Positions 2,860-24,941 of a stretch of DNA of 64,000 bases are shown piece after piece; position 1 is the stretch's first letter, and the number at the start of each line of letters is the position of its first letter. This stretch comes from Clostridiales bacterium (GTDB taxonomy: Bacteria > Bacillota > Clostridia > Saccharofermentanales > Saccharofermentanaceae), in contig JAGCVX010000038.1 of assembly GCA_017962145.1 (NCBI GenBank), positions 1 through 64,000 on the forward strand. The letters run 5' to 3'. Both the position numbers and the translations under genes were made by a program. The notes under the pieces are model-generated. The model worked only from the letters and a program-made list of their open reading frames with translations, did not search any database and was not told where the DNA came from.

Positions 2860-3813
2860 TTATGAATGTGCGAGAGACTGTACTTTTGCCTTTTTGTGTG
2901 GAAACTGAAAAGGGTAGTCCAGATGTGTCGTTCCTCGATGTGCCTGCTGTAGTTGATCGATCTCATGGCACAGCATATAATCGCGTTCCATAAAAAGCGG
3001 AGTCAGAATCTCAAGATGAGAGGTATTCCTGCAAAGAGTGCGCATTCTTGTAAAACTCAGACCGTCTGCAACCACGATCAGAAGGGATGGCTCTTGAAGC
3101 GACTGCAGATATCGGCTTGTTCTCGAAATCAAAAGCAGAAGCGTGCGTGAGTGGCAGGTGATCATATCGTCGGAATGCATAGGCTTTCCAAAACGAAGAT
3201 CGCCGTAAGGATCCGGTTCCAGATAGGAAGGAATCTCGGAAAACGAAAAGTGCGGATATTTGAGTCTGGTCAGAAGCTCGGTGATCCCGCAGGTCCTGCT
3301 GCCGTTTTTGTTTTCAAAGATAGGCGGATCTTCGGGCATGAGGATGCCCGGCATAATATCCAGCCTAACAATATGAGAAAAGTCTTTTCTTGAGTTCTCG
3401 ATGAGTCGTGTGACATGTTTCTCCCTCTCTTTCGGAGGAACGAAAGAAAGGGTGAGACATGTCTGAACGGTGGAATCGACGGGAAAGGGGACCCGTCCGA
3501 TCCCTGCACGGGTTTCCACCTCGTGTACCAGCATCAGGACATCTTTAGGGGGGTATGGTTCCCGTTCCGACAAGAGGGGGATGAGCGTCGGAAGCCGGTC
3601 TACGAGGCAATGGCGGAGGACTTCTTCTTTGGAGATCTCGTTCTGGTTATAAAGGACAAAATCGTTCTGCAAAAGCAGGTCACGATTTCTGTCGAGAGTA
3701 TGTCTGGATATCTGAAAGGCAACTACCTGAGGGATATGCCGATGCATCCTGGAGATGAGAAGTGCGGAAAAGGCCGCATCCGAATCGATGATACAGACGG
3801 TTAATTTGCTCAT
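2860..3813 (-). CDS. CpaE/TadZ-like pilus localisation protein, degenerate
   Basis: A 317-residue soluble protein encoded first in the Tad operon. It starts LTVCIIDSDAAFSALLISRM, like the receiver-like N-terminus of TadZ/CpaE, which places Tad pili at the cell pole. The C-terminal part has alternating hydrophobic strands (TLLLLISRTSRYL, SLLIVVADG) as in a MinD-like ATPase fold, but no Walker A or deviant Walker A motif is visible. Assignment therefore depends mostly on operon position and the N-terminus. It may act as a structural, non-ATP-binding localisation factor. The start is supported by GGGAG about 10 nt upstream. Confidence 0.6.
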   Translation of the reverse strand: MSKLTVCIIDSDAAFSALLISRMHRHIPQVVAFQISRHTLDRNRDLLLQNDFVLYNQNEISKEEVLRHCLVDRLPTLIPLLSEREPYPPKDVLMLVHEVETRAGIGRVPFPVDSTVQTCLTLSFVPPKEREKHVTRLIENSRKDFSHIVRLDIMPGILMPEDPPIFENKNGSRTCGITELLTRLKYPHFSFSEIPSYLEPDPYGDLRFGKPMHSDDMITCHSRTLLLLISRTSRYLQSLQEPSLLIVVADGLSFTRMRTLCRNTSHLEILTPLFMERDYMLCHEIDQLQQAHRGTTHLDYPFQFPHKKAKVQSLAHS

Positions 3814-3952
3814 ACGTGGTCTCCCTTCGTGAAAGTGACTCCATTAAACCATGTTTAAACTCCTGTTTTTTCGACAAAAGACGACAAAAGTACCACAATT
3901 GCATGTGCCGATATCAGGACAGAAACAGATCCGGAAAAAATGAAAAAAGCTC

Positions 3953-3981
3953 TTGTCAAGGTCGGAAAGCAGTGGTATCAT
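3953..3981 (+). promoter_or_regulatory. Promoter of the metK riboswitch transcript
   Basis: TTGTCA (3953-3958) and TATCAT (3976-3981) are separated by 17 nt, with TG one base before the -10 element (extended -10). The predicted start near 3988 lies just ahead of the S-box aptamer. Confidence 0.7.
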
Positions 3982-4000
3982 CATTTCACAATTAAATGAA

Positions 4001-4110
4001 ATTCATCTCTTATCAAGAGTGGCGGAGGGAACTGGCCCTATGAAGCCCGGCAACCGCGGAAAGCAGCGGTGCCAAGTCCAGCAGGTGTTTCACCTGAAAG
4101 ATGAGGATAG
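4001..4110 (+). promoter_or_regulatory. SAM-I (S-box) riboswitch
   Basis: The leader contains hallmark S-box blocks: CTTATCAAGAG (4009-4019), GGAGGGAACTGGCCC, ATGAAGCCCGGCAACC and a GGTGCCAA block before the P4 hairpin. P1 can be closed by TCATCT (4003-4008) with AGATGA (4099-4104). S-adenosylmethionine binding stabilises P1 and allows the terminator at 4124-4157 to form, lowering metK expression. This and the Tad promoter region fill the 379-nt gap between the divergent genes. Confidence 0.95.
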
Positions 4111-4123
4111 ATCAGATTATGTC

Positions 4124-4157
4124 AAACCTTTCCTCTGAAATTCAGGAGAGGTTTTTT
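4124..4157 (+). terminator. Riboswitch-controlled intrinsic terminator
   Basis: ACCTTTCCT (4126-4134) pairs with AGGAGAGGT (4144-4152), followed by a six-T run. It lies between the S-box aptamer and metK and is the expression platform. Confidence 0.88.
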
Positions 4158-4192
4158 GTTTACTTGAATACATTTTGAACAGGAGAATTTTC

Positions 4193-11702: not shown

Positions 11703-13028
11703 ATGAAACAGGAAAAAAGACGGGCATGGACAGTGCGCATGAGCCGTATCCTCACGGTGATGCTGGCTCTTGTTCTGTCTTTGTCGCTCTTTTCCTCCTG
11801 CTCCGCAAAAGCTTTTCAGAACAATCGAATCGACGTGCCGGAGATGGCGCGTCTGGTCGTAGACTCTCTGCAGGACATTTCCGTAGCGGAATCACTGTTC
11901 AATCTTATCCCTGACGAACAAAAGGATGGACTTACTTATTCCGAGTACTATGAGTACATCAGTATCCTTCAGAAGATGATTCCTTCTGCGGCTCGGATCA
12001 CCTACTTCGATATCGTTGAAGGAAACGAAAGAGAAAACCTGTTTTTGAATATGGCAGGAAGTGATTCGACGCTTTTCGAGGAACTTATGACTTCCTGTAT
12101 TCCGGTGCGCGTAACGGCCAGCCGCCAGCGCATCTCGGAAATTCCGATCTACTTTTATCTTCAGACGCAAAAAGACGGCACAGTCTATCTCAGCCGGGAA
12201 TGGATCTACAGCTGCCGCGATCTGTATTCATTTTCGCAGCACTATTTCGAAGCCTATTCCATGGAGAATCTCTATGACGTAAAGTCGCTTCTTTCCTATA
12301 CGGGCGTTTCCGAAGATCTTCTGTCATCGGACGAAGTACTTACGGAAAAAGCAAAAGAGATGATCCGTTTCTATTCTACGAACGTCAACTCTAAAGTTTC
12401 CGAGTACGAGCTGGTCTCGATCGATGCGTCCGGACTTGTGTATCTCCAGCCGAAGGTACTGGATACCAAGCTGCATACCAATGCCCGTCGCGTGCGTTTC
12501 TACAGCAGCGTCGAAAACGTGATCTCCGTAGATGATTCCATCACAAGTGAATTGAAAACGGCCGACCTGTATCTGTATTACGGTGGTCATCGTACGATCC
12601 GTATCGGTGAGACTGCGACACTTTCCCAGCTGGAATCCCTGTTCGGCGATCCGATCTCGGTCTCCTGCGGACCGGTGCTGGAATCCAAGCGGGATTCGGA
12701 AGGAAACCTGAACGAGTACAGAAATATCTTTGTACGCTACAGCGGGTTTGCGATCACGGTATATGGCATTTATATGAACACTGAAGAGTGGGAAGGAAGC
12801 TACGTGCGTTTCCGTATCTGGGATTCCGATGATGCCGGTATCGGTCTGATGCTTCGTTCAGATAACACTTCCTGGGATATCCTGGAACGGTATCCGTTTG
12901 CAGATAAGACGGATTATTCGATCGCGGTCACGATCGACGGCGAAGAATATGTACTTTCCTTTGATCTGGCTGATGAAGGGGAACAGGGCAGAGCCATTCA
13001 GGAGATCAGACTTACCTGGAAGCGCTGA
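11703..13028 (+). CDS. Predicted lipoprotein of unknown function
   Basis: A 441-residue protein with a basic N-terminus, a hydrophobic stretch (residues 15-30) and a lipobox-like LFSSC with C33, so it is probably anchored on the outer face of the membrane. The rest is soluble, rich in aromatic, serine and acidic residues, with a possible repeated beta-rich half (a late stretch around ETATLSQLESLFGDP resembles the SmpA-like lipoprotein folds only loosely). I do not recognise the family. It begins 1 nt after rlmB, so it is co-transcribed with the cysE operon, though no functional link is evident. Confidence 0.8.
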   Translation: MKQEKRRAWTVRMSRILTVMLALVLSLSLFSSCSAKAFQNNRIDVPEMARLVVDSLQDISVAESLFNLIPDEQKDGLTYSEYYEYISILQKMIPSAARITYFDIVEGNERENLFLNMAGSDSTLFEELMTSCIPVRVTASRQRISEIPIYFYLQTQKDGTVYLSREWIYSCRDLYSFSQHYFEAYSMENLYDVKSLLSYTGVSEDLLSSDEVLTEKAKEMIRFYSTNVNSKVSEYELVSIDASGLVYLQPKVLDTKLHTNARRVRFYSSVENVISVDDSITSELKTADLYLYYGGHRTIRIGETATLSQLESLFGDPISVSCGPVLESKRDSEGNLNEYRNIFVRYSGFAITVYGIYMNTEEWEGSYVRFRIWDSDDAGIGLMLRSDNTSWDILERYPFADKTDYSIAVTIDGEEYVLSFDLADEGEQGRAIQEIRLTWKR

Positions 13029-13880: not shown

Positions 13881-14561
13881 ATGAAGAAGATACTTATAGT
13901 TGAAGACAATACAGAGATCAATCACCTGATCGCCGATGCACTGAAAAAGAACGGATACGAGTGCCAGCAGGCATTTTCCGGAACGGAAGCACTCCTTTAC
14001 TATGAAAAGGACGATTTCGATCTGGTCCTGATGGACATGATGCTTCCGGGTCTTTGCGGCGATGAGCTTTTCCCGAAACTGAAAGCGATCAAGGATACAC
14101 CGGTCATTGTCGTTTCTGCAAAAGATGAGATGGACACAAAAGTGGGCATGCTTACATCGGGCGCAGAAGACTATATTACGAAGCCTTTTGAGATCCCGGA
14201 ACTTCTGGCACGTGTTGCTGTTCAGATCCGCCGCGTGTCTGCCAAGAGCGGTGAGGCTTCCGGTTCCAAGCTTTCCTATAAGGAATTAACACTTGATGAG
14301 CCTTCGTTCACCGTGCTGGTCAACAACAACGAAGTCCAGCTGACAAAAAGAGAGTTCCAGATCCTGGCACTTCTCGTATCTCACCCCAAGCGCGTATTCA
14401 CCAAGCAGGACATTTACGACTGCGCATGGAATGAGATCTATATCGGTGAAGATAAGACTATTAATGTACATATAAGTAATATTCGTAAGAAACTCAAAGA
14501 GTTCACGGATACTGAGTTTATTGAGACTGTATGGGGAATCGGATATAAACTTGCAAAATAA
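13881..14561 (+). CDS. OmpR/PhoB-family response regulator
   Basis: A 226-residue transcription factor with a receiver domain (acidic pocket E8, D9; phosphoacceptor D52; switch lysine in VVSAKDE) and a C-terminal winged helix (DEPSFTVLVNNNEVQLTKREFQILALL ... TINVHISNIRKKL is the recognition region). It is the first gene of the ABC transporter island, and the likely partner histidine kinase is the last (24012-24941). It most likely activates transporter modules on exposure to a membrane-active compound, as with BceR/SpaR-like regulators. GGTGG-type ribosome-binding site precedes the ATG. Confidence 0.95.
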   Translation: MKKILIVEDNTEINHLIADALKKNGYECQQAFSGTEALLYYEKDDFDLVLMDMMLPGLCGDELFPKLKAIKDTPVIVVSAKDEMDTKVGMLTSGAEDYITKPFEIPELLARVAVQIRRVSAKSGEASGSKLSYKELTLDEPSFTVLVNNNEVQLTKREFQILALLVSHPKRVFTKQDIYDCAWNEIYIGEDKTINVHISNIRKKLKEFTDTEFIETVWGIGYKLAK

Positions 14562-14575
14562 GAAGGTATATCTTT

Positions 14576-15487
14576 ATGAGTTACATCTTAACGACGAACA
14601 ATATCACGAAGAAGTTCAAAACAAAACTGGCTGTCGATAACGTTTCGATTCACGTTGAGCGCGGAGAAGTCTACGGTCTGATCGGAAGAAACGGTGCCGG
14701 CAAGACAACGCTTTTGAAGATGATCGCCAATCTTTCCGTTCCTACAAGCGGAACCTATGATATCGTGGGTAAAGACGGAGAGACCAAGGCTCAGATGATG
14801 CCGAAAGTCGGCGTTCTGATCGAAGATCCGGGCGTATTCCAGAATATGAGTGCTTTCGAAAACCTGAAGGCAAAAGCACTTGCCTATGGTGTGCACGACG
14901 ATAAGTATTTAAATGAACTTCTTGAGTTCGTCGGTCTCAGCGGTGTCGGTAAGAAATCCGTAAAGAATTTCTCTTTGGGAATGCGCCAGCGCCTCGGAAT
15001 TGCCATCGCGATGGTCAATTCTCCGGAACTTCTGCTTCTCGATGAGCCGATCAATGGTCTCGATCCGCAGGGTATCGCGGAAGTACGTAATCTGATCCAT
15101 AAACTTTGTATCGAGAGACATATCTCGATCATTATTTCCAGCCACATCCTGGAAGAACTGTCCAAGGTGGCTAACCACTACGGCATCATCCATAACGGAA
15201 AGCTTCTGGATGAGCTCTCCAACGATGAACTTATTTCTCGTTGCAAATCACATCTTGTCATGAAGACCAGTGATCCTGAAAAGACAAAGGCGCTCTTAAA
15301 CTCGATGGGTATTTCCGATTATTCATTCGAGATCGATCACTTCGTGATCCGCGAACGAGTCGAGGAAGCCGGTGCGATCTCTGTAGCGCTGGCTAAAGAA
15401 GATGTGCAGACTCTGGAAATGCGAAAAGAGGGTCAATCTCTTGAGGAATACTATTTCCGTCTGACAGGAGGTAACGGCAATGCTTAA
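14576..15487 (+). CDS. ABC transporter ATP-binding protein, BcrA type, module 1
   Basis: A 303-residue ATPase of the bacitracin/lantibiotic-export type. Walker A GRNGAGKT is at 37-44, a family-typical signature SLGMRQ at 133-138, Walker B LLLLDEP at 152-158, D-loop GLDPQG, and switch H190. A C-terminal extension of about 80 residues follows the nucleotide-binding domain, ending in LTGG. It lies 14 nt after the response regulator gene, so the two share a transcript. The permease gene overlaps its last 8 nt, and the codons of the terminal TGG supply the permease's AGGAGG. Confidence 0.95.
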   Translation: MSYILTTNNITKKFKTKLAVDNVSIHVERGEVYGLIGRNGAGKTTLLKMIANLSVPTSGTYDIVGKDGETKAQMMPKVGVLIEDPGVFQNMSAFENLKAKALAYGVHDDKYLNELLEFVGLSGVGKKSVKNFSLGMRQRLGIAIAMVNSPELLLLDEPINGLDPQGIAEVRNLIHKLCIERHISIIISSHILEELSKVANHYGIIHNGKLLDELSNDELISRCKSHLVMKTSDPEKTKALLNSMGISDYSFEIDHFVIRERVEEAGAISVALAKEDVQTLEMRKEGQSLEEYYFRLTGGNGNA

Positions 15488-16340
15488 TCTTTTCACTATG
15501 CATATGTACCGCGCGTTGAAAGCAAAGTCTTCGCTCGTATTAGGAATTATCATGGTCGCTTTCATGTTTGCGACTTTCGGACTTGCATTTATCATTTTCG
15601 ATGATCCGCTTAAGCTTGGAATCGGTGCCGCCTATACGCAGATGATGGTGGGTGAGGGATCCGGTAATATTTCTGCTGCCGGTGCACATCACTTTATGAT
15701 CCAGTCCAATGACGCATTTATTATCTGCCTGACGATCTTTGCAGTTATCTTTGCAAACTGCGATTTTTCGAGAGGTTTTGTAAAGAATACATATGGTATG
15801 TTCGAACATAGATGGAAACAGGTATGGTCGAAGTGGACCGCGATGACAGCCTGCGTTTCGATCGCATATGCTGTTTGCTCTATGCTTGGTATCGCTCTTT
15901 GCTTAGGACTTCTTAAAAACAGTCAGTTCGGTGATGCTTCGCAGCTGCTTCGCTCTTTAGGCGTGGTATATCTCTGCCTGATCGCGATGATGACGATGGT
16001 ATTCTTTATCACGAATCTCTTTAAGAGCCCGGCCGGCGGTATGGTTATCGGCCTGATCATTGCAACAGGTATTCTTCAGACCGGTGAAATGATTCTGGAT
16101 CTTCTTATCGCAAAGCTTTCCGGTGCAGATATGAATGAAACAGTTGCAGCTTTTGCAGGTATAGGTGAAAAGACATTCTTCCGTATCTCGGATTACTGTC
16201 TGGACAATGTATATCTTTCTTATACTGCTTCTATGGGAACATCCGATACGATCCGCACAGTTGCAGTCGCGCTGGTTCATATGGCGCTGTTCCTGGGCCT
16301 TTCGATGCTCCTTTCCGAGAAGAGAGACGTACGCTGCTGA
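15480..16340 (+). CDS. ABC-2 type permease, module 1
   Basis: A 286-residue membrane protein with about six hydrophobic segments, starting NLFTMHMYRALKAKSSLVLG and ending EKRDVRC. The arrangement (cytoplasmic N-terminal amphipathic helix, FANCDFSRGFVKNT loop after the second membrane segment, charged RD tail) resembles BcrB/LanE-G permeases that remove peptide antibiotics from the membrane. The paired ATPase overlaps it by 8 nt. It is the longest of the eight permeases, with a longer first outside loop. Confidence 0.9.
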   Translation: MLNLFTMHMYRALKAKSSLVLGIIMVAFMFATFGLAFIIFDDPLKLGIGAAYTQMMVGEGSGNISAAGAHHFMIQSNDAFIICLTIFAVIFANCDFSRGFVKNTYGMFEHRWKQVWSKWTAMTACVSIAYAVCSMLGIALCLGLLKNSQFGDASQLLRSLGVVYLCLIAMMTMVFFITNLFKSPAGGMVIGLIIATGILQTGEMILDLLIAKLSGADMNETVAAFAGIGEKTFFRISDYCLDNVYLSYTASMGTSDTIRTVAVALVHMALFLGLSMLLSEKRDVRC

Positions 16341-16449
16341 CCGCTTAATCTTTTCTTAACTTTTTCTTTTGGTTTTTTAAACTTCTCCTTGGCGATTGAT
16401 TAGGATTTGTTCTTTAGAATGAGTTTGTAAGCACAAGGAGGAGACAACA

Positions 16450-17361
16450 ATGGATTACATTTTAACAACTAACGCATTGACAAAAACCTTTGGTAAGTAC
16501 AAAGCGTCCAACGAGATCTCGATCCATGTAAATCGTGGAGATATCTACGGACTGATCGGCAGAAACGGTGCCGGTAAAACAACCCTGATGAAGATGCTCG
16601 GCGGACTTTCCCATCCCACATCCGGTTCTTTTGAGATCCGCGGTAAGAATGGTGAGAATACAGAGAAGATGATGCCGAAGGTCGGTATCCTGATCGAGAA
16701 TCCGGGTCTTTACCCCAACATGACAGCGATGCAGAACCTTAAGACAAAGGCACTGGCTCTGGGTATTAAAGATGACAATTATTTACAGGGCCTTCTCAAA
16801 GAAGTCGGACTGGACAACACCGGCAAGAAGAAAGCAAAGCAGTTCTCGCTTGGTATGAAGCAGAGACTGGGAATCGCACTGGCACTGGTCAATCAGCCGG
16901 AACTTATGATCCTCGATGAGCCGATCAACGGTCTGGATCCTCAGGGTATCGCAGAAATGAGACAGATCCTTACCCACCTTTGCAATGACAGAGGAATCAC
17001 GATCATCATCAGCAGCCACATCCTGGATGAGCTTTCCAAGGTAGCAACCAGATACGGTATCATCCACGAAGGTAAGCTTCTCGAAGAAGACAGCAAAGAA
17101 GAGCTTTTCAATAAGTGCAGCGAGCGTCTTGAACTGAAGACCTCTGATCTTGAGAGAACACTCTCCATCCTTCAGACGATGGGCTTCCAGAATTTTGAAG
17201 TAAAAGACGATACGATCAATATCTACGAACGTATCAACGAAGGCGGTGTCATCACAGTCGCACTGGCCAAGGAAAATATCCAGACAAACGAAATCGGTGT
17301 AAAGAGTGAAGCGCTTGAAGATTATTACTTCCAGCTGACAGGAGGAAAAGAAAATGTTTAA
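16450..17361 (+). CDS. ABC transporter ATP-binding protein, BcrA type, module 2
   Basis: A second 303-residue ATPase, collinear with that of module 1: GRNGAGKT (37-44), SLGMKQ signature, LMILDEPINGLDPQG, and ISSHILDEL. It ends LTGGKENV. The identical length and residue-for-residue layout show that modules arose by duplication followed by strong divergence. The gap of 109 nt upstream contains no clear promoter, only pyrimidine-rich sequence and an AAGGAGGAG ribosome-binding site, so it may depend on the upstream transcript or on a regulator-dependent promoter. Confidence 0.95.
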   Translation: MDYILTTNALTKTFGKYKASNEISIHVNRGDIYGLIGRNGAGKTTLMKMLGGLSHPTSGSFEIRGKNGENTEKMMPKVGILIENPGLYPNMTAMQNLKTKALALGIKDDNYLQGLLKEVGLDNTGKKKAKQFSLGMKQRLGIALALVNQPELMILDEPINGLDPQGIAEMRQILTHLCNDRGITIIISSHILDELSKVATRYGIIHEGKLLEEDSKEELFNKCSERLELKTSDLERTLSILQTMGFQNFEVKDDTINIYERINEGGVITVALAKENIQTNEIGVKSEALEDYYFQLTGGKENV

Positions 17362-18154
17362 TTTGATTAAGATGAATCTGTATCGCATGGTACATGCGGT
17401 ATCTACATGGGTATTGGCTATTGTAGCCGTATTTCTTGCCTTCCTGGATTTTGGAATCATGAAGATCATGGTAGACGATCCGTTCAAACTGTTCGGATCA
17501 GCCTCTTCTCAGATGTTGGGAACTACCACCATTACCGGTCGTACGACAATCGCCGGATTCCTTATCAGCTCTGATATTCTTATCGTACTTTCGATCTTTG
17601 TAGTTATCTTCGCGAATGCGGAGCAGAAGAACGGTTTTGACAAGAACATCATCGGTATCACGAAGATGAAGTGGAAGCACACAGTCGCCAGATGGCTCTC
17701 CTGTGTGATCGGTCTGACAGCAATCGTTGCAGTTTCTTACGGCCTGTACTTCGGCCTGAGCGCTCTGTTCATGAACTCTTTCGCGATGGGCAGCGTAGCC
17801 GCTTATCTTAAGGTCCTTGCAACCGTATACTTCGGTCTGGTAGCATTCTCGGCGATCTTCTTCTTCTTCACCACTCTCTTCAGAAGCTCTGTTGGTGGAA
17901 TCGTAGCTTCCCTCGTAATGAGCCTGGGTGTTCTTTCCCTCCTCGAAAAGCTCCTTGATTTCGCAGTAAAGAAGATCTTTACAAGCCCGAAGATTCTTCC
18001 GACGGACCTCCTGTTCGACAGCGCATACATCAACTTCGATGCAACGAGCGCGACAACCAAAGCCTGCCTGATCATGGCCGGTATCTCACTGGCATACATC
18101 GTGCTCAGTGTCGGCGGAAGCGCACTGCTTCAGCAGAAGAGAGATGTAAAATAA
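17354..18154 (+). CDS. ABC-2 type permease, module 2
   Basis: A 266-residue membrane protein with about six hydrophobic segments, collinear with the module 1 permease: NLIKMNLYRMVHAVSTWVL start, IFANAEQKNGFDKNIIG after the second segment, and the charged end LLQQKRDVK. It overlaps its ATPase by 8 nt, the same overlap as in module 1. It would form, probably as a homodimer, the membrane part of a two-component exporter with the preceding ATPase. Confidence 0.9.
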   Translation: MFNLIKMNLYRMVHAVSTWVLAIVAVFLAFLDFGIMKIMVDDPFKLFGSASSQMLGTTTITGRTTIAGFLISSDILIVLSIFVVIFANAEQKNGFDKNIIGITKMKWKHTVARWLSCVIGLTAIVAVSYGLYFGLSALFMNSFAMGSVAAYLKVLATVYFGLVAFSAIFFFFTTLFRSSVGGIVASLVMSLGVLSLLEKLLDFAVKKIFTSPKILPTDLLFDSAYINFDATSATTKACLIMAGISLAYIVLSVGGSALLQQKRDVK

Positions 18155-18194
18155 TCAACGCCTGATCTTTCTTAATATAATACCCTCTAACCTT

Positions 18195-18242
18195 GAAAAC
18201 AGAACTTCTTCTCTGGAAATGAGAAGAGTTCTGTTTTCTTTA
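18195..18242 (+). terminator. Intrinsic terminator after module 2
   Basis: GAAAACAGAACT (18195-18206) pairs with AGTTCTGTTTTC (18227-18238), and TTCTC/GAGAA extends the stem inward, giving one long hairpin with a T-rich 3' arm. It separates module 2 from module 3. Confidence 0.8.
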
Positions 18243-18261
18243 AGTGAAAAATGAAAAGAAT

Positions 18262-18289
18262 TTGACGAAATGGCTTGAATGAATATAAT
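18262..18289 (+). promoter_or_regulatory. Promoter of ABC module 3
   Basis: TTGACG (18262-18267) and a perfect TATAAT (18284-18289) are 16 nt apart. It lies after the module 2 terminator and 50 nt before the third ATPase gene, so module 3 and the kinase can be expressed independently of modules 1 and 2. Confidence 0.8.
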
Positions 18290-18339
18290 ATTGAGGATGT
18301 GGGAACAGACATCAATGTACGAATCAACCGGAGGGCGCC

Positions 18340-19251
18340 ATGGAATATTTACTTGAAACCGATAATATTACGAAAAAGTACGGAAATCTTACCGCAGTCG
18401 ATCATGTCACCATCAAATTACAGCGTGGTGAGATCTATGGTCTGATTGGTCGTAATGGTGCTGGTAAGACTACACTTCTGAAGATGCTGGCAGGTCTTGC
18501 TAAGCCGACAGAAGGTACCTATACCATCTTTGGTGAATCCCAGAAGAATACAGCTAAACTTCGTGACCGTATCGGTGTTCTTATCGAGAGCCCCGGTCTT
18601 TTCCCGAATCTTTCCGCTTTTGATAATATGAAGATAAAAGCGCTGACCCTCGGTATGAACGATGATGCATTTCTCCGTGAACTCTTAAATGACGTTGGCT
18701 TATCTGATGTTGAGAAGAGAAAAGTAAAGCGTTTTTCCATGGGTATGAAGCAGCGTCTCGGAATTGCTATGTCTCTTGTAGGACATCCGGACCTGCTGCT
18801 TCTTGACGAACCGATCAACGGCCTCGATCCGCAGGGTATCGTAGAAGTCCGTGAATTGATCGAGAGACTCAGCAAAGAGAGAAATATCACGATCCTGATC
18901 TCCAGCCATATTCTTGAAGAACTTTCGAAGATCGCGACTCGTTACGGTATCATCCACAACGGTCAGCTGATCGATGAGTTTACACATCAGGAACTGTTGA
19001 AACGATGCAGTGAGCGTATTGAGATCCGTCCTTCTGATCCGACCCGCGCGGTAACGGTCATCGAAGGTATGGGTATAACTGAATTTAAGGTTATTGACAA
19101 TAGTATCATCCAGATTTTTGAGCGACTGGATGACAGTGGTGATATTGTTTTGGAACTGGCAAAGAATAACATCAAGACGTTAAGTGTTGCCGTCAAGAAC
19201 GAAGCCCTTGAAGATTACTATTTGTCCATAACCGGAGGCGCCAAAGCATGA
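18340..19251 (+). CDS. ABC transporter ATP-binding protein, BcrA type, module 3
   Basis: The third 303-residue ATPase: GRNGAGKT (37-44), SMGMKQ signature, LLLLDEPINGLDPQG, ISSHILEEL, and C-terminal ITGGAKA. It is followed by six permease genes and no second ATPase, so this single ATPase probably serves several permease pairs. It overlaps the first permease by 4 nt (ATGA). The codons for its terminal TGG provide the GGAGG used by that permease, as in modules 1 and 2. Confidence 0.95.
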   Translation: MEYLLETDNITKKYGNLTAVDHVTIKLQRGEIYGLIGRNGAGKTTLLKMLAGLAKPTEGTYTIFGESQKNTAKLRDRIGVLIESPGLFPNLSAFDNMKIKALTLGMNDDAFLRELLNDVGLSDVEKRKVKRFSMGMKQRLGIAMSLVGHPDLLLLDEPINGLDPQGIVEVRELIERLSKERNITILISSHILEELSKIATRYGIIHNGQLIDEFTHQELLKRCSERIEIRPSDPTRAVTVIEGMGITEFKVIDNSIIQIFERLDDSGDIVLELAKNNIKTLSVAVKNEALEDYYLSITGGAKA

Positions 19252-20015
19252 TTGCCCTGATTCGGGCCAGACTCTATTCAGTGGTTAAATCCAAAAGCTT
19301 TGCGATTTTTCTTGTTACCATGACCATCTGGGCCTTGTGGAACATAATTGATGCACAGGTTTCTTCTACGATTTCCAATGCAGAGACGGCCTATATATAC
19401 TGGAATATGATCAATTTGTTCGGTATCATTCTGCCGGTTGGTGCCAGTACTTGGTATGGATGCTTTATGCCCCACCATGTCTCGTTTAATGTTCCTTTTC
19501 AGGTTGATGATAAGCACGTCAAATGGGTGGGAATCCTGACAACATATGTTCTTGAAACAGCCGGTTTTCTTGTCTTGATGATCCTCGCTTTTGTGGCCGA
19601 GCATCTGCCGACATGTAAGATGGAGCATTCCTCTGCGGCGACAACGCTGAAAGTGATCCTTGTCATTTTTCTGATTTGCTTTTTCCGGACAGGCTTTGTG
19701 ATCTTCTTTACTGAACTCACCAAAAGCCGTTTGGGCGGAGCACTATTCGGAATTGTATTTGTCTGCGGTGCGGTCCAGGTTTTCAGCTTGGATCTTGAGG
19801 TTCGTATTTACGATTTTCTGGGGATTACAGAGACGACGTTGCCTGTTACTACGCACACGACGTATTTCATTTATTCCACACTTTTGGCGATGGATGATAG
19901 ACACATTACATTTGAGTCGACTCCGATGCTCGGTACATGTCTCTATTTGCTTCTGGTCGGCATGCTTTTTCTGGGACTCACACAGTATCTGATCCAAAAG
20001 CGAGATGTAGAGTAA
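19248..20015 (+). CDS. ABC-2 type permease, module 3 A-type copy 1
   Basis: A 255-residue membrane protein with about six hydrophobic segments. It begins IALIRARLYSVVKSKSF, carries LGITETTLPVTTHTTYFIY in the last outside loop and ends IQKRDVE. The genes at 20836 and 22426 code for the same length and the same landmarks. With its neighbour of the B type (12 nt downstream) it probably forms a heterodimeric channel like LanE/LanG. Confidence 0.9.
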   Translation: MIALIRARLYSVVKSKSFAIFLVTMTIWALWNIIDAQVSSTISNAETAYIYWNMINLFGIILPVGASTWYGCFMPHHVSFNVPFQVDDKHVKWVGILTTYVLETAGFLVLMILAFVAEHLPTCKMEHSSAATTLKVILVIFLICFFRTGFVIFFTELTKSRLGGALFGIVFVCGAVQVFSLDLEVRIYDFLGITETTLPVTTHTTYFIYSTLLAMDDRHITFESTPMLGTCLYLLLVGMLFLGLTQYLIQKRDVE

Positions 20016-20027
20016 AGGGGGCGCGGC

Positions 20028-20822
20028 ATGTATAACATTTTCAAAAAAAACTTGTTCCAGTTACGTCAAGATCGCACCTTCTGGATTGCTGTTACCATTT
20101 TTCTCTTGATCCTTGTGTGGATGACGTCGCCGGTGGATCCGTATCATCGCGTGAAGTATGTAGGAACCAATACTGAACTCATTCGCGTTATGGCTAAGGA
20201 GGATGCAAAATACGAGAGGGTGGAAACGCTTTCGTACTATATCCGAGATCGATTTGCTTCGAACCGAGCCTTGGTGGTCGGCATCGCTTTTTGTTTCGTT
20301 TTCTTTAATAGAGAAAAGAGTTCGAAGTCTTTTGAGAATACTTGTGCGGTGACCAGGGATCGTTTTTCTGTATACTTTGCAAATGTCGCTTCACTGACTA
20401 TGGTGTGCGAGTTGTGTTCTTTCGTAGAGCTTTTGAGTCTGACGATCACGATTCTTTACTCAGGAAAGCATAGAAGTCTGCAGGGGTTAGGTGAACTTTT
20501 TCCTTTCGTCTGTATGCAGTTGATGGTGGTATTGTTCCTGGTTGTGCTGTTTTATGGAGCATATCTGATTACACAGCGAATACTTGTTCCGGTTGTGATA
20601 TTTGCTGTTTGGGATATGAGCGTGCTCGTAACAACTTTTTCTGTTTTTCCGGAAACGGTAAAACAGGTGATTGCTGATACGTCTATTCTCGGGATTATGG
20701 ATAGAGTCATTGCAACGACCAGCTGGTCAGCATGTGCGCGAGGGATGATGATTTTTGTCCCGGCCACGCTTCTATGTATGACGATCACTCTTGTCGTGAT
20801 CCACGCCAGAGATTTGAACTAG
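20028..20822 (+). CDS. ABC-2 type permease, module 3 B-type copy 1
   Basis: A 264-residue membrane protein. Landmarks of the B type: FWI near residue 18, a long first outside loop ending RFASNR, then FNREKSSKSFENTCAVTRDR, a V-rich LITQRILVPVV segment and C-terminal HARDLN. It is the most divergent of the three B-type copies. GGGGGCG serves as a modest ribosome-binding site. Confidence 0.88.
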   Translation: MYNIFKKNLFQLRQDRTFWIAVTIFLLILVWMTSPVDPYHRVKYVGTNTELIRVMAKEDAKYERVETLSYYIRDRFASNRALVVGIAFCFVFFNREKSSKSFENTCAVTRDRFSVYFANVASLTMVCELCSFVELLSLTITILYSGKHRSLQGLGELFPFVCMQLMVVLFLVVLFYGAYLITQRILVPVVIFAVWDMSVLVTTFSVFPETVKQVIADTSILGIMDRVIATTSWSACARGMMIFVPATLLCMTITLVVIHARDLN

Positions 20823-20835
20823 GAGCGAGGAAAAG

Positions 20836-21603
20836 ATGGTTGATCAGATTCGAGCACGTTTTTATGCTATCGTCCGAAGCAAGACATTTCTTTTGGTTCT
20901 TATTGTCTGCGTTTTTTGGGTGCTTTTTGCCACCATCGGCTTATTAACAGGAGATTCTTCGGAACCGATCAATACATCTTATGTTTTCGTTCAAATTACC
21001 CGCCTGTATATAGAAAACGTTCCCATTGGCGCTGCCGGCTGGTATATTTGCTACCGCAAAAGCAGGTACCAGAACCAGATTCCTTGTCAGCAGTACGAGA
21101 TGAAGAGCCTTTTCGGAAACTTTTGTGCGTCAATGTGCATGAGTAATATTTTCATGCTAGGTCACTTCGTATGTGCGATCATTGTGGTCCTGATCATGGG
21201 TGACCGCATTATAGCCTCGAGTTTTTTGAACCTTGCCGGAACAATAGCAGTTCTTTTCTTGATCTCGGTTTCCAGAACAGCGTGGACTTGCCTTTGTACG
21301 GAAATGGTTCGCGATCATGTCGTGGGAACGGTGCTGGGATTGATCTCAAGTACTGCGATTTTGCAGACATTCCTTCTTGATGGGGAAATCAAGGTTTGTG
21401 GTTTGCTGGGAATCAAGGCTTCGTCTTTGCCGGTTACCTCTTACACCACGTACTGTATTCACGAGGCTTTGTTTAAAGGAAACGGTAAAGTTGTGCTCTT
21501 TAATCATATAAATCCATATGCGGCAGTACTGGTTCTGATTGGATTCATAGCTGTGTTTTCTTTGGGTACGGTTCTTCTGGTGCGGAAGAGAGATGTAGCG
21601 TGA
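20836..21603 (+). CDS. ABC-2 type permease, module 3 A-type copy 2
   Basis: A 255-residue membrane protein, starting VDQIRARFYAIVRSKTF and ending VRKRDVA. It shares with the copy at 22426 the stretches NQIPCQQYEMKSLF versus NNVPCQQHDMKSLF and the loop LGIKASSLPVTSYTTYCIH. These two copies are closer to each other than to copy 1, which suggests two rounds of duplication. Confidence 0.9.
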   Translation: MVDQIRARFYAIVRSKTFLLVLIVCVFWVLFATIGLLTGDSSEPINTSYVFVQITRLYIENVPIGAAGWYICYRKSRYQNQIPCQQYEMKSLFGNFCASMCMSNIFMLGHFVCAIIVVLIMGDRIIASSFLNLAGTIAVLFLISVSRTAWTCLCTEMVRDHVVGTVLGLISSTAILQTFLLDGEIKVCGLLGIKASSLPVTSYTTYCIHEALFKGNGKVVLFNHINPYAAVLVLIGFIAVFSLGTVLLVRKRDVA

Positions 21604-21619
21604 AAGGAGGTAGATTCTT

Positions 21620-22411
21620 ATGTATACACTAATTAAAACGCATGTATATAAGCTGGTCCATGACAAACTGTTCTGGATCCTTCTGGGAGTCTGCTTTCTT
21701 TTTCAGTTATGGGCTTTTTCTCCGAGACCCTCGTACGGAACTTTTGTTTATACCGGTCCGAATCCTGCTTTTACGGAGTATGTAAATAAAGTCGGCGCAA
21801 GTGTTGTTACAGAACCAACTTTGCTGGAAAATGTCATAAGACGAGCCATTACTTTGGTGATTACCGCATTTTTCATGTCCTATTCTTTTGTATACTGCAA
21901 CCGGGAAAAGAAGAGCCATGTGTTTGAAAACATATGTGCCATCCACAGTAATCGGACGGAGGTATTCTTCAGTAATATCCTCGCGCAGATGGCTATGGTT
22001 ATTCCGTTTTTCCTGCTCAACAGCCTGAACCTTGTTATTTGGTCACTTTACACTGACCCACATATGGCGATAGGTGATGCACGTATTTTGCTTCCCTACC
22101 TTGTGGGGCTTGTGATCTATGTCTCATTTTTGATCTCACTTTCTTATTCGCTTTATATGCTGACACATCGCGTTCTCGTGCCGGTTGTTGTTTTTCTTTC
22201 GTTCTCCATTAATTCACTGTTTAAGTCAGATGCGAAAGGCGTTCCGGTCCTACAGCAGATTACGCAGTGCAACATAAGCCGGATTCTAAGCAAACTGAAT
22301 TCAATACGCAGCTGGGGAGATTGTCTCAATCTCGCTTTGTATCTTCTGCCTGTGACGATTATCGTTGTGGTATTAACGACAACGGTAGTTCGTCATCGAG
22401 ATCTGGATTAA
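21620..22411 (+). CDS. ABC-2 type permease, module 3 B-type copy 2
   Basis: A 263-residue membrane protein of the B type, with HDKLFWILLGV, VYTGPNPAFTEY in the first outside loop, YCNREKKSHVFENICAI after the second membrane segment, MLTHRVLVPVV, and C-terminal RHRDLD. AAAGGAGG precedes it at good spacing. It resembles copy 3 more than copy 1. Confidence 0.9.
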   Translation: MYTLIKTHVYKLVHDKLFWILLGVCFLFQLWAFSPRPSYGTFVYTGPNPAFTEYVNKVGASVVTEPTLLENVIRRAITLVITAFFMSYSFVYCNREKKSHVFENICAIHSNRTEVFFSNILAQMAMVIPFFLLNSLNLVIWSLYTDPHMAIGDARILLPYLVGLVIYVSFLISLSYSLYMLTHRVLVPVVVFLSFSINSLFKSDAKGVPVLQQITQCNISRILSKLNSIRSWGDCLNLALYLLPVTIIVVVLTTTVVRHRDLD

Positions 22412-22425
22412 GGAGGGCATAGAAA

Positions 22426-23193
22426 ATGGTCAATCAGATTCACGCACGTTTATACGCAATCGTCCGAACTACGTTCTTCAAAGTATTCCTTTCGCTAATG
22501 GTATTATGGACGCTTCTTTCTATCTTTGGATTTTTACACGAAAAACCAACCGTAGAAATGGATACGGCTTATATATTCGTACAGATGACCCAGTTGTATC
22601 TGACACTTCTGCCCATTGCTGTCGGAAGCTGGCATATTCTTTTCCGCAGCACCGGTTTTCAGAATAATGTTCCCTGTCAGCAGCATGACATGAAGAGTCT
22701 TTTCAGCAGTTTTGCCGTATCGATGATCACGAACGCGTTTTTTATGTTGGGATTAAGCATTTGTTCTGTTATCATCATCCTGGGTATGGGAGATCGCCTG
22801 ACTTCCTCAAGTGCATCCTGCATGGCCGAGACGATCCTCATCTTATGCATGATCTCCCTTTCAAGGACAGCATGGTCATGTCTTTGTATTGAAGTTGTCA
22901 GAACTCGCATAGTCGGCGTTTTACTTGCACTTCTTTCTTCTTGCCCGATCCTGCAGTTTTTCCTTATTGACTGGGAAGTGGAAGTACTCAATCTCTTTGG
23001 TATTCATTCTTCCTCTTTGCCCATTACATCGTATAGCTCGTATATGATACATGATTCGTTGTTTTTGCAAAACGGAAAAACAATCTTTTTTGATCGTCTG
23101 GATCCACATATATCGATAGTGGTATTGACTGTATTGATCCTGCTTTTTTCTCTTGGCACGCTGTTTATCGCGACAAGACGAGATGTTGTGTGA
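22426..23193 (+). CDS. ABC-2 type permease, module 3 A-type copy 3
   Basis: A 255-residue membrane protein, starting VNQIHARLYAIVRTTFF, with PCQQHDMKSLF, loop FGIHSSSLPITSYSSYMIH and C-terminal ATRRDVV. Same length and collinear with the other two A-type permeases. AAGGAGG lies upstream, in the 14-nt gap after the preceding gene. Confidence 0.9.
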   Translation: MVNQIHARLYAIVRTTFFKVFLSLMVLWTLLSIFGFLHEKPTVEMDTAYIFVQMTQLYLTLLPIAVGSWHILFRSTGFQNNVPCQQHDMKSLFSSFAVSMITNAFFMLGLSICSVIIILGMGDRLTSSSASCMAETILILCMISLSRTAWSCLCIEVVRTRIVGVLLALLSSCPILQFFLIDWEVEVLNLFGIHSSSLPITSYSSYMIHDSLFLQNGKTIFFDRLDPHISIVVLTVLILLFSLGTLFIATRRDVV

Positions 23194-23209
23194 AAGGAGG
23201 ACGATTCGC

Positions 23210-24001
23210 ATGTATCAGCTTACGAAGATGAATGCATATAAGACACTTCGCGACAGAACATTCTGGATCCTGATCGGAATCTGCCTTCTTATCGAACTGT
23301 GGGTATATGTGCCCCGAGCCGCTTTCGATGTCTTTGTATATACCGGTGCGGATCCGAAATACAACAGATATCTCGAATTCTTCAAAAGAAAAGTGGCGAC
23401 GAATCCTACGTTGATCGATGATGTTCTGAGACGGGGATTCACCCTTCCTACGCTTAGTTTCTTTGCGTCCTATTCCTTTGTGTTTTGCGGAAGAGAGAGA
23501 AAAAGCCGGTTGTTCGAAAACCTTTGCGCGATCAGGAGAGATCGTACGGAAGTATTCTTCGCCAATCTTCTTTGGCTGGTGTTGACGGTGATTCCGTTTC
23601 TTCTGATCAATCAATGCATGCTGGCGATCGCTTCGAAAATATCCGCTCCCGAAAAGACGGTCGGGGATGTTTCAGTCCTTTTCCCGTATTATTTCTCGGT
23701 GTTTGTCGTCGCGGCATTTTTTGCTTCCCTTACCTATTCGGTCTATATGTTGAGCCACTCTTCCGTTCTCCCGGTCGGTATATATGTCTTCTTTTCCACG
23801 ATCTCGCTTTTCCACCCGGCTACGGCGGACGTTCCGGTACTGGGTTATATTACAAAACTGGATCTGATCGATATTGTTCACAAACTGGCTGAGGTGCGTA
23901 CATGGAAAGATTGTTTCAATCTTTCGATATGGTTAATACCTGTTATAATAGTATCTGTTCTGGTCTCGGCTTTCGTAGTACAGAAGAGAGATTTGAAGTA
24001 A
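23210..24001 (+). CDS. ABC-2 type permease, module 3 B-type copy 3
   Basis: A 263-residue membrane protein of the B type: RDRTFWILIGI, VYTGADPKYNRY in the first outside loop, FCGRERKSRLFENLCAI, MLSHSSVLPVG, and C-terminal VQKRDLK. I place the start at ATG 23210 after AAAGGAGG; a longer open frame begins inside the previous gene and would add about 19 residues without support. The kinase gene follows after 10 nt. Confidence 0.9.
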   Translation: MYQLTKMNAYKTLRDRTFWILIGICLLIELWVYVPRAAFDVFVYTGADPKYNRYLEFFKRKVATNPTLIDDVLRRGFTLPTLSFFASYSFVFCGRERKSRLFENLCAIRRDRTEVFFANLLWLVLTVIPFLLINQCMLAIASKISAPEKTVGDVSVLFPYYFSVFVVAAFFASLTYSVYMLSHSSVLPVGIYVFFSTISLFHPATADVPVLGYITKLDLIDIVHKLAEVRTWKDCFNLSIWLIPVIIVSVLVSAFVVQKRDLK

Positions 24002-24011
24002 GGAGAAAGAT

Positions 24012-24941
24012 ATGCTTTATTGGGCAATTGGTGCTACCGTAGCTTTTCTGGCGATCCTGATCGCTTTCATCCAATATCGTAAGCAGATCAAGAAGAACTG
24101 CAGGCAGCTGCGTGTCATGCAGAAGCACTCTTCCAACCAGCGCCTGAGTTCTGAGGTGCCATATAAGGAAGTAAATGAACTGGTCATGCGCGTCAACGAT
24201 ATCTGTAACCGCTATCAGGAAGAAGGTATCGAGATGGAACGCAACGAGAATAACCTCAAGGAAGCCATCGCCAATCTTTCTCACGATATCCGTACGCCGC
24301 TTACTTCTTTGGATGGATATGTCCAGCTCCTGGTCATGTCTGATTCCCAGGAAGAGAAGGATCACTATATGCAGATTATCCAGAACCGTATTTCGAGCCT
24401 GAAGGAGCTTCTGGAGGAACTGTTTACCTATACGAAGATGCAGGATTCGCATTATGAACTCAACTGCGTGCCGATGGATGGCGGTCAGTGTGTCTGTGAG
24501 ACGGTCCTTTCTTTCTATGAAGACTTTGAAACAAGAGGTCTTGAGCCGGAGGTATCTTTCAGTGAAGAGAAACTGATGATCGTCGGCAACGAAGTCGCGC
24601 TTCGCCGTATCGTCCAGAATCTTGTTAAAAATGCACTGGAGCACGGCACGAAGCGTCTGGGATTGACTTTGGATAAGAAGGGTGACAATCTGCATTTCGT
24701 CTGCTTTAACGATAAGAAGGAGACGGAGATCATCGAGGTCGACAAGATCTTTACCCGTTTCTACAAGGGAGATAAGGCAAGAACCTCCACATCTACCGGT
24801 CTGGGACTTGCGATCGCGCAGGGGTTGGTCGAGCGTATGCACGGTGAGATCTCGGCGGCCGTGGAGGGGGAACTGTTTAAGATCGAGTTTACTATTCCTC
24901 TATATAAAGATAGAAGAGAGAAGGGCAAGAGCGAAAGCTGA
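24012..24941 (+). CDS. Sensor histidine kinase with minimal sensor region
   Basis: A 309-residue kinase with one N-terminal membrane segment (about 3-20), no outside domain and no HAMP motif that I can see. The dimerisation/phosphoacceptor box NLSHDIRTPLTSL puts the phospho-histidine at H91. ATP-binding boxes: N box RIVQNLVKNALEHG, F box FTRFYKGDKA, G2 box STGLGLAIAQGLVERMHG. It resembles kinases of lantibiotic and bacitracin response systems that sense through a transporter rather than by their own domain. It closes the module 3 transcript, about 9.5 kb from the likely partner regulator. Confidence 0.93.
   Translation: MLYWAIGATVAFLAILIAFIQYRKQIKKNCRQLRVMQKHSSNQRLSSEVPYKEVNELVMRVNDICNRYQEEGIEMERNENNLKEAIANLSHDIRTPLTSLDGYVQLLVMSDSQEEKDHYMQIIQNRISSLKELLEELFTYTKMQDSHYELNCVPMDGGQCVCETVLSFYEDFETRGLEPEVSFSEEKLMIVGNEVALRRIVQNLVKNALEHGTKRLGLTLDKKGDNLHFVCFNDKKETEIIEVDKIFTRFYKGDKARTSTSTGLGLAIAQGLVERMHGEISAAVEGELFKIEFTIPLYKDRREKGKSES

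Follow-up and report, generated by a model that had tools for sequence, protein, structure and literature searches.

Three BcrA/LanF-class ATPases and eight short permeases between a response regulator and a histidine kinase in a rumen Clostridia genome: a probable variant of Cpr/BcrAB-like peptide resistance loci

CprABCK-R of Clostridioides difficile and LcrSR-LctFEG of S. mutans each combine an ATPase with two different ABC-2 permeases under the control of a two-component system, with no biosynthesis genes (PMC5786555). The locus analysed here lies in a 64,000-nucleotide stretch of DNA, called the window, from a rumen Clostridia genome of 85% completeness. Its ATPase gene F3, followed by A and B permease genes, has the same layout as Cpr and LctFEG, but the locus differs from these by the presence of three ATPases and of three A-B pairs behind one of them. 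CprK has a 113-aa extracellular loop and cprR is unlinked from cprK (PMC5786555), whereas the window histidine kinase (HK) has no such loop, and the response regulator gene (RR) and HK stand first and last in one locus. LanFEG and Cpr transporters have two different ABC-2 permeases of about 250 aa with six transmembrane helices. A and B differ from each other here; B1 and B3 pass ABC-2 cut-offs, A does not, and the moderate-confidence models are ABC-2-like.

LanFEG systems (NisFEG, NukFEG) likewise share the F3-A-B layout, an E-loop ATPase and permeases of about 250 aa. No lantibiotic synthesis genes were seen in the window, however, and the A and B proteins that were scanned matched no LanE or LanG model (NCBIfam). 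With BcrAB(D) of Enterococcus plasmids the locus has in common an ATPase followed by a short permease, F3 being 44% identical to BcrA across 99% of its length. It differs by having RR and HK where that system has BcrR, and by the lack of a BcrD-like gene; the P and B profiles did not match E. faecalis BcrB, in a test that a single-sequence target makes weak. BceRS-BceAB (PMC3023708, PMC10314905) is alike in its kinase without an outside sensor domain, and kinase-transporter coupling is plausible. Yet BceB is a 10-TM, FtsX-like protein that includes a large extracellular domain, and its kinase has two transmembrane (TM) segments, as against short ABC-2-type permeases, with no FtsX match (Pfam), and a one-TM HK in the window. 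A BceRS-type link, as first suggested, was ruled out on this permease and kinase anatomy.

RR-ATPase-permease-HK loci of Lachnospiraceae and of a sister genus share this gene order, with the operator motif described below in most of them and homologous RR, ATPase (55.5% with F3) and HK (39%), as in Lachnospira eligens ATCC 27750 (L187), where this arrangement is annotated. They differ by carrying one or two modules instead of three, and no A-B pairs or permease-less ATPase were noticed among the mapped loci.

Genes and signals of the locus

Thirteen ORFs, all on the + strand, occupy positions 13,881-24,941 (ORF list), in the order RR, F1-P1, F2-P2, F3, A1 B1 A2 B2 A3 B3, HK. The coordinates bear out the original prediction of a regulator at the left, a kinase at the right, and three 303-aa ATPases and eight permeases on one strand. 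The features are as follows.

13881..14561, +, RR, OmpR-family response regulator (Response_reg and Trans_reg_C)
14576..15487, +, F1, BcrA/LanF-class ABC ATPase (ABC_tran 3e-32; TIGR03740 1.6e-70, below cut-off)
15480..16340, +, P1, permease of module 1 (36% identity with P2; 8-bp overlap with F1)
16344..16404, +, putative RR operator, tandem 11-bp units (CTTAATCTTTT CTTAACTTTTT CTTTTGGTTTT TTAAACTTCTC CTTGGCGATTG...) upstream of F2
16450..17361, +, F2, BcrA/LanF-class ABC ATPase (ABC_tran 1.8e-31; TIGR03740 5.3e-74, below cut-off)
17354..18154, +, P2, permease of module 2 (profile homology to A and B; 8-bp overlap with F2)
18195..18242, +, hairpin resembling an intrinsic terminator, in the spacer between module 2 and F3 (-24.9 kcal/mol, T-rich tail)
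18262..18289, +, near-consensus sigma-A promoter TTGACG-16-TATAAT upstream of F3 (11/12 consensus positions)
18340..19251, +, F3, BcrA/LanF-class ABC ATPase (without permease in 19/23 genus genomes)
19248..20015, +, A1, A-type permease (A profile; 4-bp overlap with F3)
20028..20822, +, B1, B-type permease (PF12679, 27.8 bits against a cut-off of 27.2)
20836..21603, +, A2, A-type permease (47% identity with A3; AlphaFold model)
21620..22411, +, B2, B-type permease (44.5% identity with B3; sub-threshold PF12730)
22426..23193, +, A3, A-type permease (47% identity with A2)
23210..24001, +, B3, B-type permease (PF12730, 29.1 bits against a cut-off of 27)
24012..24941, +, HK, sensor histidine kinase (HisKA and HATPase_c; one N-terminal TM segment)

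The three ATPases, each 303 aa long, are 54-59% identical to one another and match ABC_tran with E values of 1e-31 to 1e-35 (Pfam). Their top NCBIfam model was in all cases the lantibiotic-protection ATPase TIGR03740 (E 1e-70 to 1e-74, below the curated cut-off). The E-loop, reportedly described by Okuda et al. in 2010 (a reference listed in PMC7038271) as a Glu replacing the Gln of the Q-loop, was present in 68/68 F1-F3 sequences (the table has 69 rows, F2 of one genome, G001, having been entered twice). Together with the resemblance of F3 to BcrA, these results agree with the BcrA/LanF class proposed initially.

The eight permeases measure 255-286 aa, the A and B types 254-270 aa. Their count was correct in the original prediction, which did not notice that P1 and P2 are singles and that the last six, all behind F3, alternate between two families as A1B1 A2B2 A3B3. 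Only B1 and B3 passed a Pfam cut-off; no ABC-2 Pfam match was found for A1, A2, A3, P1 or P2, with nothing at E<=0.1 in the case of P1 and no Pfam family at all matched by A3. The permeases other than B1 and B3 were assigned by profile comparison, which connects A and B with P, by hydropathy and by moderate-confidence models. In the AlphaFold models (mean pLDDT 61 for A2 and 76 for B2) A2 consists of long helices, and the ABC-2 exporters NosY and PmtD were among the top PDB matches of both, all with E above 0.01; a PDB sequence search with B gave no match. The relationship of the permeases to known families is no more than distant. A1 and B1 are 26-30% identical to the other copies. Recent tandem copying of A-B was ruled out, the copies being just 26-47% identical, and placing A1-A3 as one clade gave a p-AU of 0.23.

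HK carries its two kinase domains (Pfam) and, according to the hydropathy scan, crosses the membrane only once, at its N-terminus, and lacks an extracytoplasmic domain.

Conservation in relatives and history of the A-B pairs

HK relatives of 71-82% identity were found in 22/22 other genomes of the genus; the relatives that bear a name are Saccharofermentanaceae-level rumen and gut MAGs (for example Candidatus Scatonaster). The DNA around them was taken and mapped, with mechanical ORFs labelled by best bit score. The order RlmB, lipoprotein gene, often a tyrosine phosphatase, RR, F1, P1, F2, P2, F3, HK, Tig/ClpX was kept, Tig/ClpX being found in most stretches long enough to reach that point. 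RR had the same position in 21/22 relatives, the remaining contig (G001) ending before it. Because 21 further genomes of the genus share the RR-F1-P1-F2-P2-F3-...-HK order, besides this one cut by a contig end, the arrangement is not due to chance. The lipoprotein-like ORF (window positions 11703-13028; 441 aa, lipobox-like FSSC, no Pfam match) stays beside the locus in all stretches long enough to include it; a lipoprotein gene adjoins Cpr loci, too. One permease-less genome, G005, has its HK frame split into 147 + 156 aa (L039, around 3250-4160), by a pseudogene or an assembly error.

The separation of RR from HK had been read as the trace of modules inserted between them. In Lachnospiraceae and the sister genus, RR and HK already flank one or two ATPase-permease modules as the ordinary order, so that no insertion need be assumed, and this scenario was discarded on the canonical order. 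What expanded is the number of modules.

The part of the locus that varies is the one behind F3. In 19 genomes it holds no permease gene; G018, G013 and G003 have one A-B pair each there, and the window genome has three. In the 19 permease-less genomes the gap between F3 and HK is of -4 to 26 bp, with no ORF between. The locus can therefore exist without A/B, as the permease-less F3 shows. Full-length matches to the A profile were limited to 4/23 genus genomes and 4 sister-genus genomes. Elsewhere in the permease-less genomes no full-length A-B match was found, the only hits being two of 37 residues to A (G008 and G015, E ~4e-4), and among 391 genomes of the class the A profile matched in the window genome and in one sister-genus genome only.

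Permease-less F3 proteins keep the Walker A, signature, Walker B and H-loop motifs; Walker A reads GRNAAGKTT in F3 of two genomes, which is still GxxxxGKT. Strong purifying selection was observed on RR, HK and the ATPases (eleven genome pairs compared). For F3, pairwise Nei-Gojobori dN/dS was 0.042-0.086 in eight permease-less genome pairs, and 0.054 and 0.065 in two of the three A-B-carrying pairs, the third having a saturated dS.

Stand-alone F3-A-B operons, not adjoining an HK, were detected in four sister-genus genomes; one of the sister-genus genomes, G113 (L180), has two tandem F3-A-B cassettes accompanied by neither RR nor HK. In a tree of 106 ATPases, a quick run with some long branches and support by SH-aLRT only, F1 and F2 grouped as sister paralogues (99), and the F3 of the genus formed one group with the ATPases of the sister-genus F3-A-B operons (SH-aLRT 99), apart from F1/F2. 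Because of this grouping, F3 with A-B is probably an old LanFEG-like cassette. Whether the A-B pairs were gained once, in a single clade and behind an F3 already permease-less, rather than lost elsewhere, is a history we can propose only tentatively. The HK tree, in which a branch (83/85) sets the four A-B genomes apart, is in line with it; however, the sister group of F3 has A-B, and the permease-less G020 is nested inside the A-B group in the concatenated tree, which would require a loss or a second gain.

Putative operator and transcripts

Operators of OmpR-family regulators typically consist of direct repeats of eleven bases. Tandem 11-bp units starting with CTTAAT, CTTAAC or similar were found in the P1-F2 spacer of 23/23 genomes. 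A strict scan for three CTTAAC units missed the window site, and a looser two-unit pattern was used, fixed after the sites had been viewed. It precedes an ATPase gene, at a distance of no more than 200 bp, in 23/23 loci of the genus, 13/14 of the sister genus and 7/13 of Lachnospiraceae, that is 43/50 loci in all and 20/27 in the outgroup, against 8 matches in ~752 kb elsewhere. A longer pattern matched the window genome exactly at the F2 site only, and its second-best match there had 3 mismatches. From these repeats, we infer that RR binds upstream of F2. The promoter core GCGATTGATTAGGATTT of the window F2 promoter is also present in the L. eligens locus (L187, 4936-4952), although the two belong to different orders. 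The putative operator would tie the regulator to its target across two orders, and it offers a promoter that can be tested in L. eligens, a gut commensal available in culture.

Within the locus, the operator stands ahead of F2 alone. The P2-F3 spacer forms a predicted hairpin in 23/23 genomes, and because this is followed in the window by a near-consensus promoter before F3, the segment from F3 to HK is probably a separate transcript with its own promoter, past a conserved terminator-like hairpin; in the same scan, promoter-like sites were overall no more numerous than in shuffles. A single transcript from F3 to HK fits with the alternation of A and B genes at spacers of 12-16 bp and with the 4-bp F3/A1 overlap. 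The locus does not, then, appear to be the single induced island that had been imagined: control by the two-component system probably holds for part of it, via the putative operator, but not for the whole.

Possible functions and their alternatives

On the basis of the ATPase class, the E-loop, the linkage to a two-component system and the layout (PMC5786555), we consider it fairly likely that this is a chromosomal locus for sensing and resisting antimicrobial peptides, of the Cpr/BcrAB/LanFEG class, with its F3-A-B cassette and separate promoters. The best reading is that of a further variant of known Cpr/BcrAB-like systems. Peptide or envelope stress would act on HK, probably through its transporters since HK has no outside sensor domain, and phosphorylated RR would then bind the repeats ahead of F2 and induce F2-P2. 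RR-F1-P1 and F3...HK would use their own promoters, as suggested by spacing, hairpin and promoter match. F3 would have arrived in one cassette together with the A and B genes, whose products would form a heterodimeric permease for this ATPase, and in the window genome multiplication of the A-B pair to three probably led F3 to power three pairs, which may expel different peptides. A1B1 may be the sole partner of F3, position being what suggests sharing by the three pairs; a literature search for ATPase sharing found nothing. In most relatives, where no permease gene follows F3, this ATPase probably works for the P1/P2 transporters or aids signalling by HK.

The initial view of a detoxification or self-protection island survives in part: defence is favoured, while its BceRS comparison and insertion idea are not retained. 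The ORF list of the window showed no recognisable peptide-precursor or synthesis gene, in agreement with the prediction, although very short ORFs could escape. Producer immunity was rejected, on the lantibiotic synthesis genes missing from the window. An unlikely alternative is that the locus, instead of removing foreign peptides, secretes peptides, signals or lipids made by the cell itself, as PmtABCD does with phenol-soluble modulins. In its favour, PmtD came near the top of the structure searches with A2 and B2, PmtC was one of the NCBIfam models that scored better with the ATPases, and the locus is present beside housekeeping genes in every genus genome examined. The lantibiotic-protection model nevertheless fits the ATPases far better than PmtC does, no precursor gene was recognised, and the two-component arrangement is typical of inducible resistance (see also PMC5786555).

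The position of F3 immediately before HK in 19/19 permease-less genomes, with a promoter probably common to both, its preserved catalytic motifs under purifying selection, and a kinase devoid of sensor domain would all suit a permease-less F3 acting as a dedicated regulatory subunit of HK, a soluble ATPase reporting transporter load or ATP state and keeping this role without A/B. Such a role seems improbable to us, as no precedent was found in the literature searched, P1 or P2, present in these genomes, could be powered by F3, and the sister-genus F3-A-B cassettes do not adjoin an HK. Very unlikely, in our opinion, is the broader proposal that F3 needs no dedicated permease, is a regulatory subunit of the kinase and recruits zero, one or three A-B pairs across species, so as to be a common motor for them and a hub of signalling. 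With zero, one or three permease pairs following the same ATPase, the conserved locus offers a natural series for two questions: can several ABC-2 exporters use one motor, and can an ATPase persist once its permease is gone?

The same genome (G000) contains a related ATPase-permease-RR-HK unit with another gene order (contig C13, L007). A LanM search in which the control matched nowhere either gave no match. Two LanC-like proteins are encoded outside the window, on contigs C7 (L185, 10049-11395) and C2 (L186, 9083-10465), with no recognisable LanA, LanB or LanM neighbours by eye; the LanC-like gene of L186 comes, also by eye, after nitrogenase-like genes.
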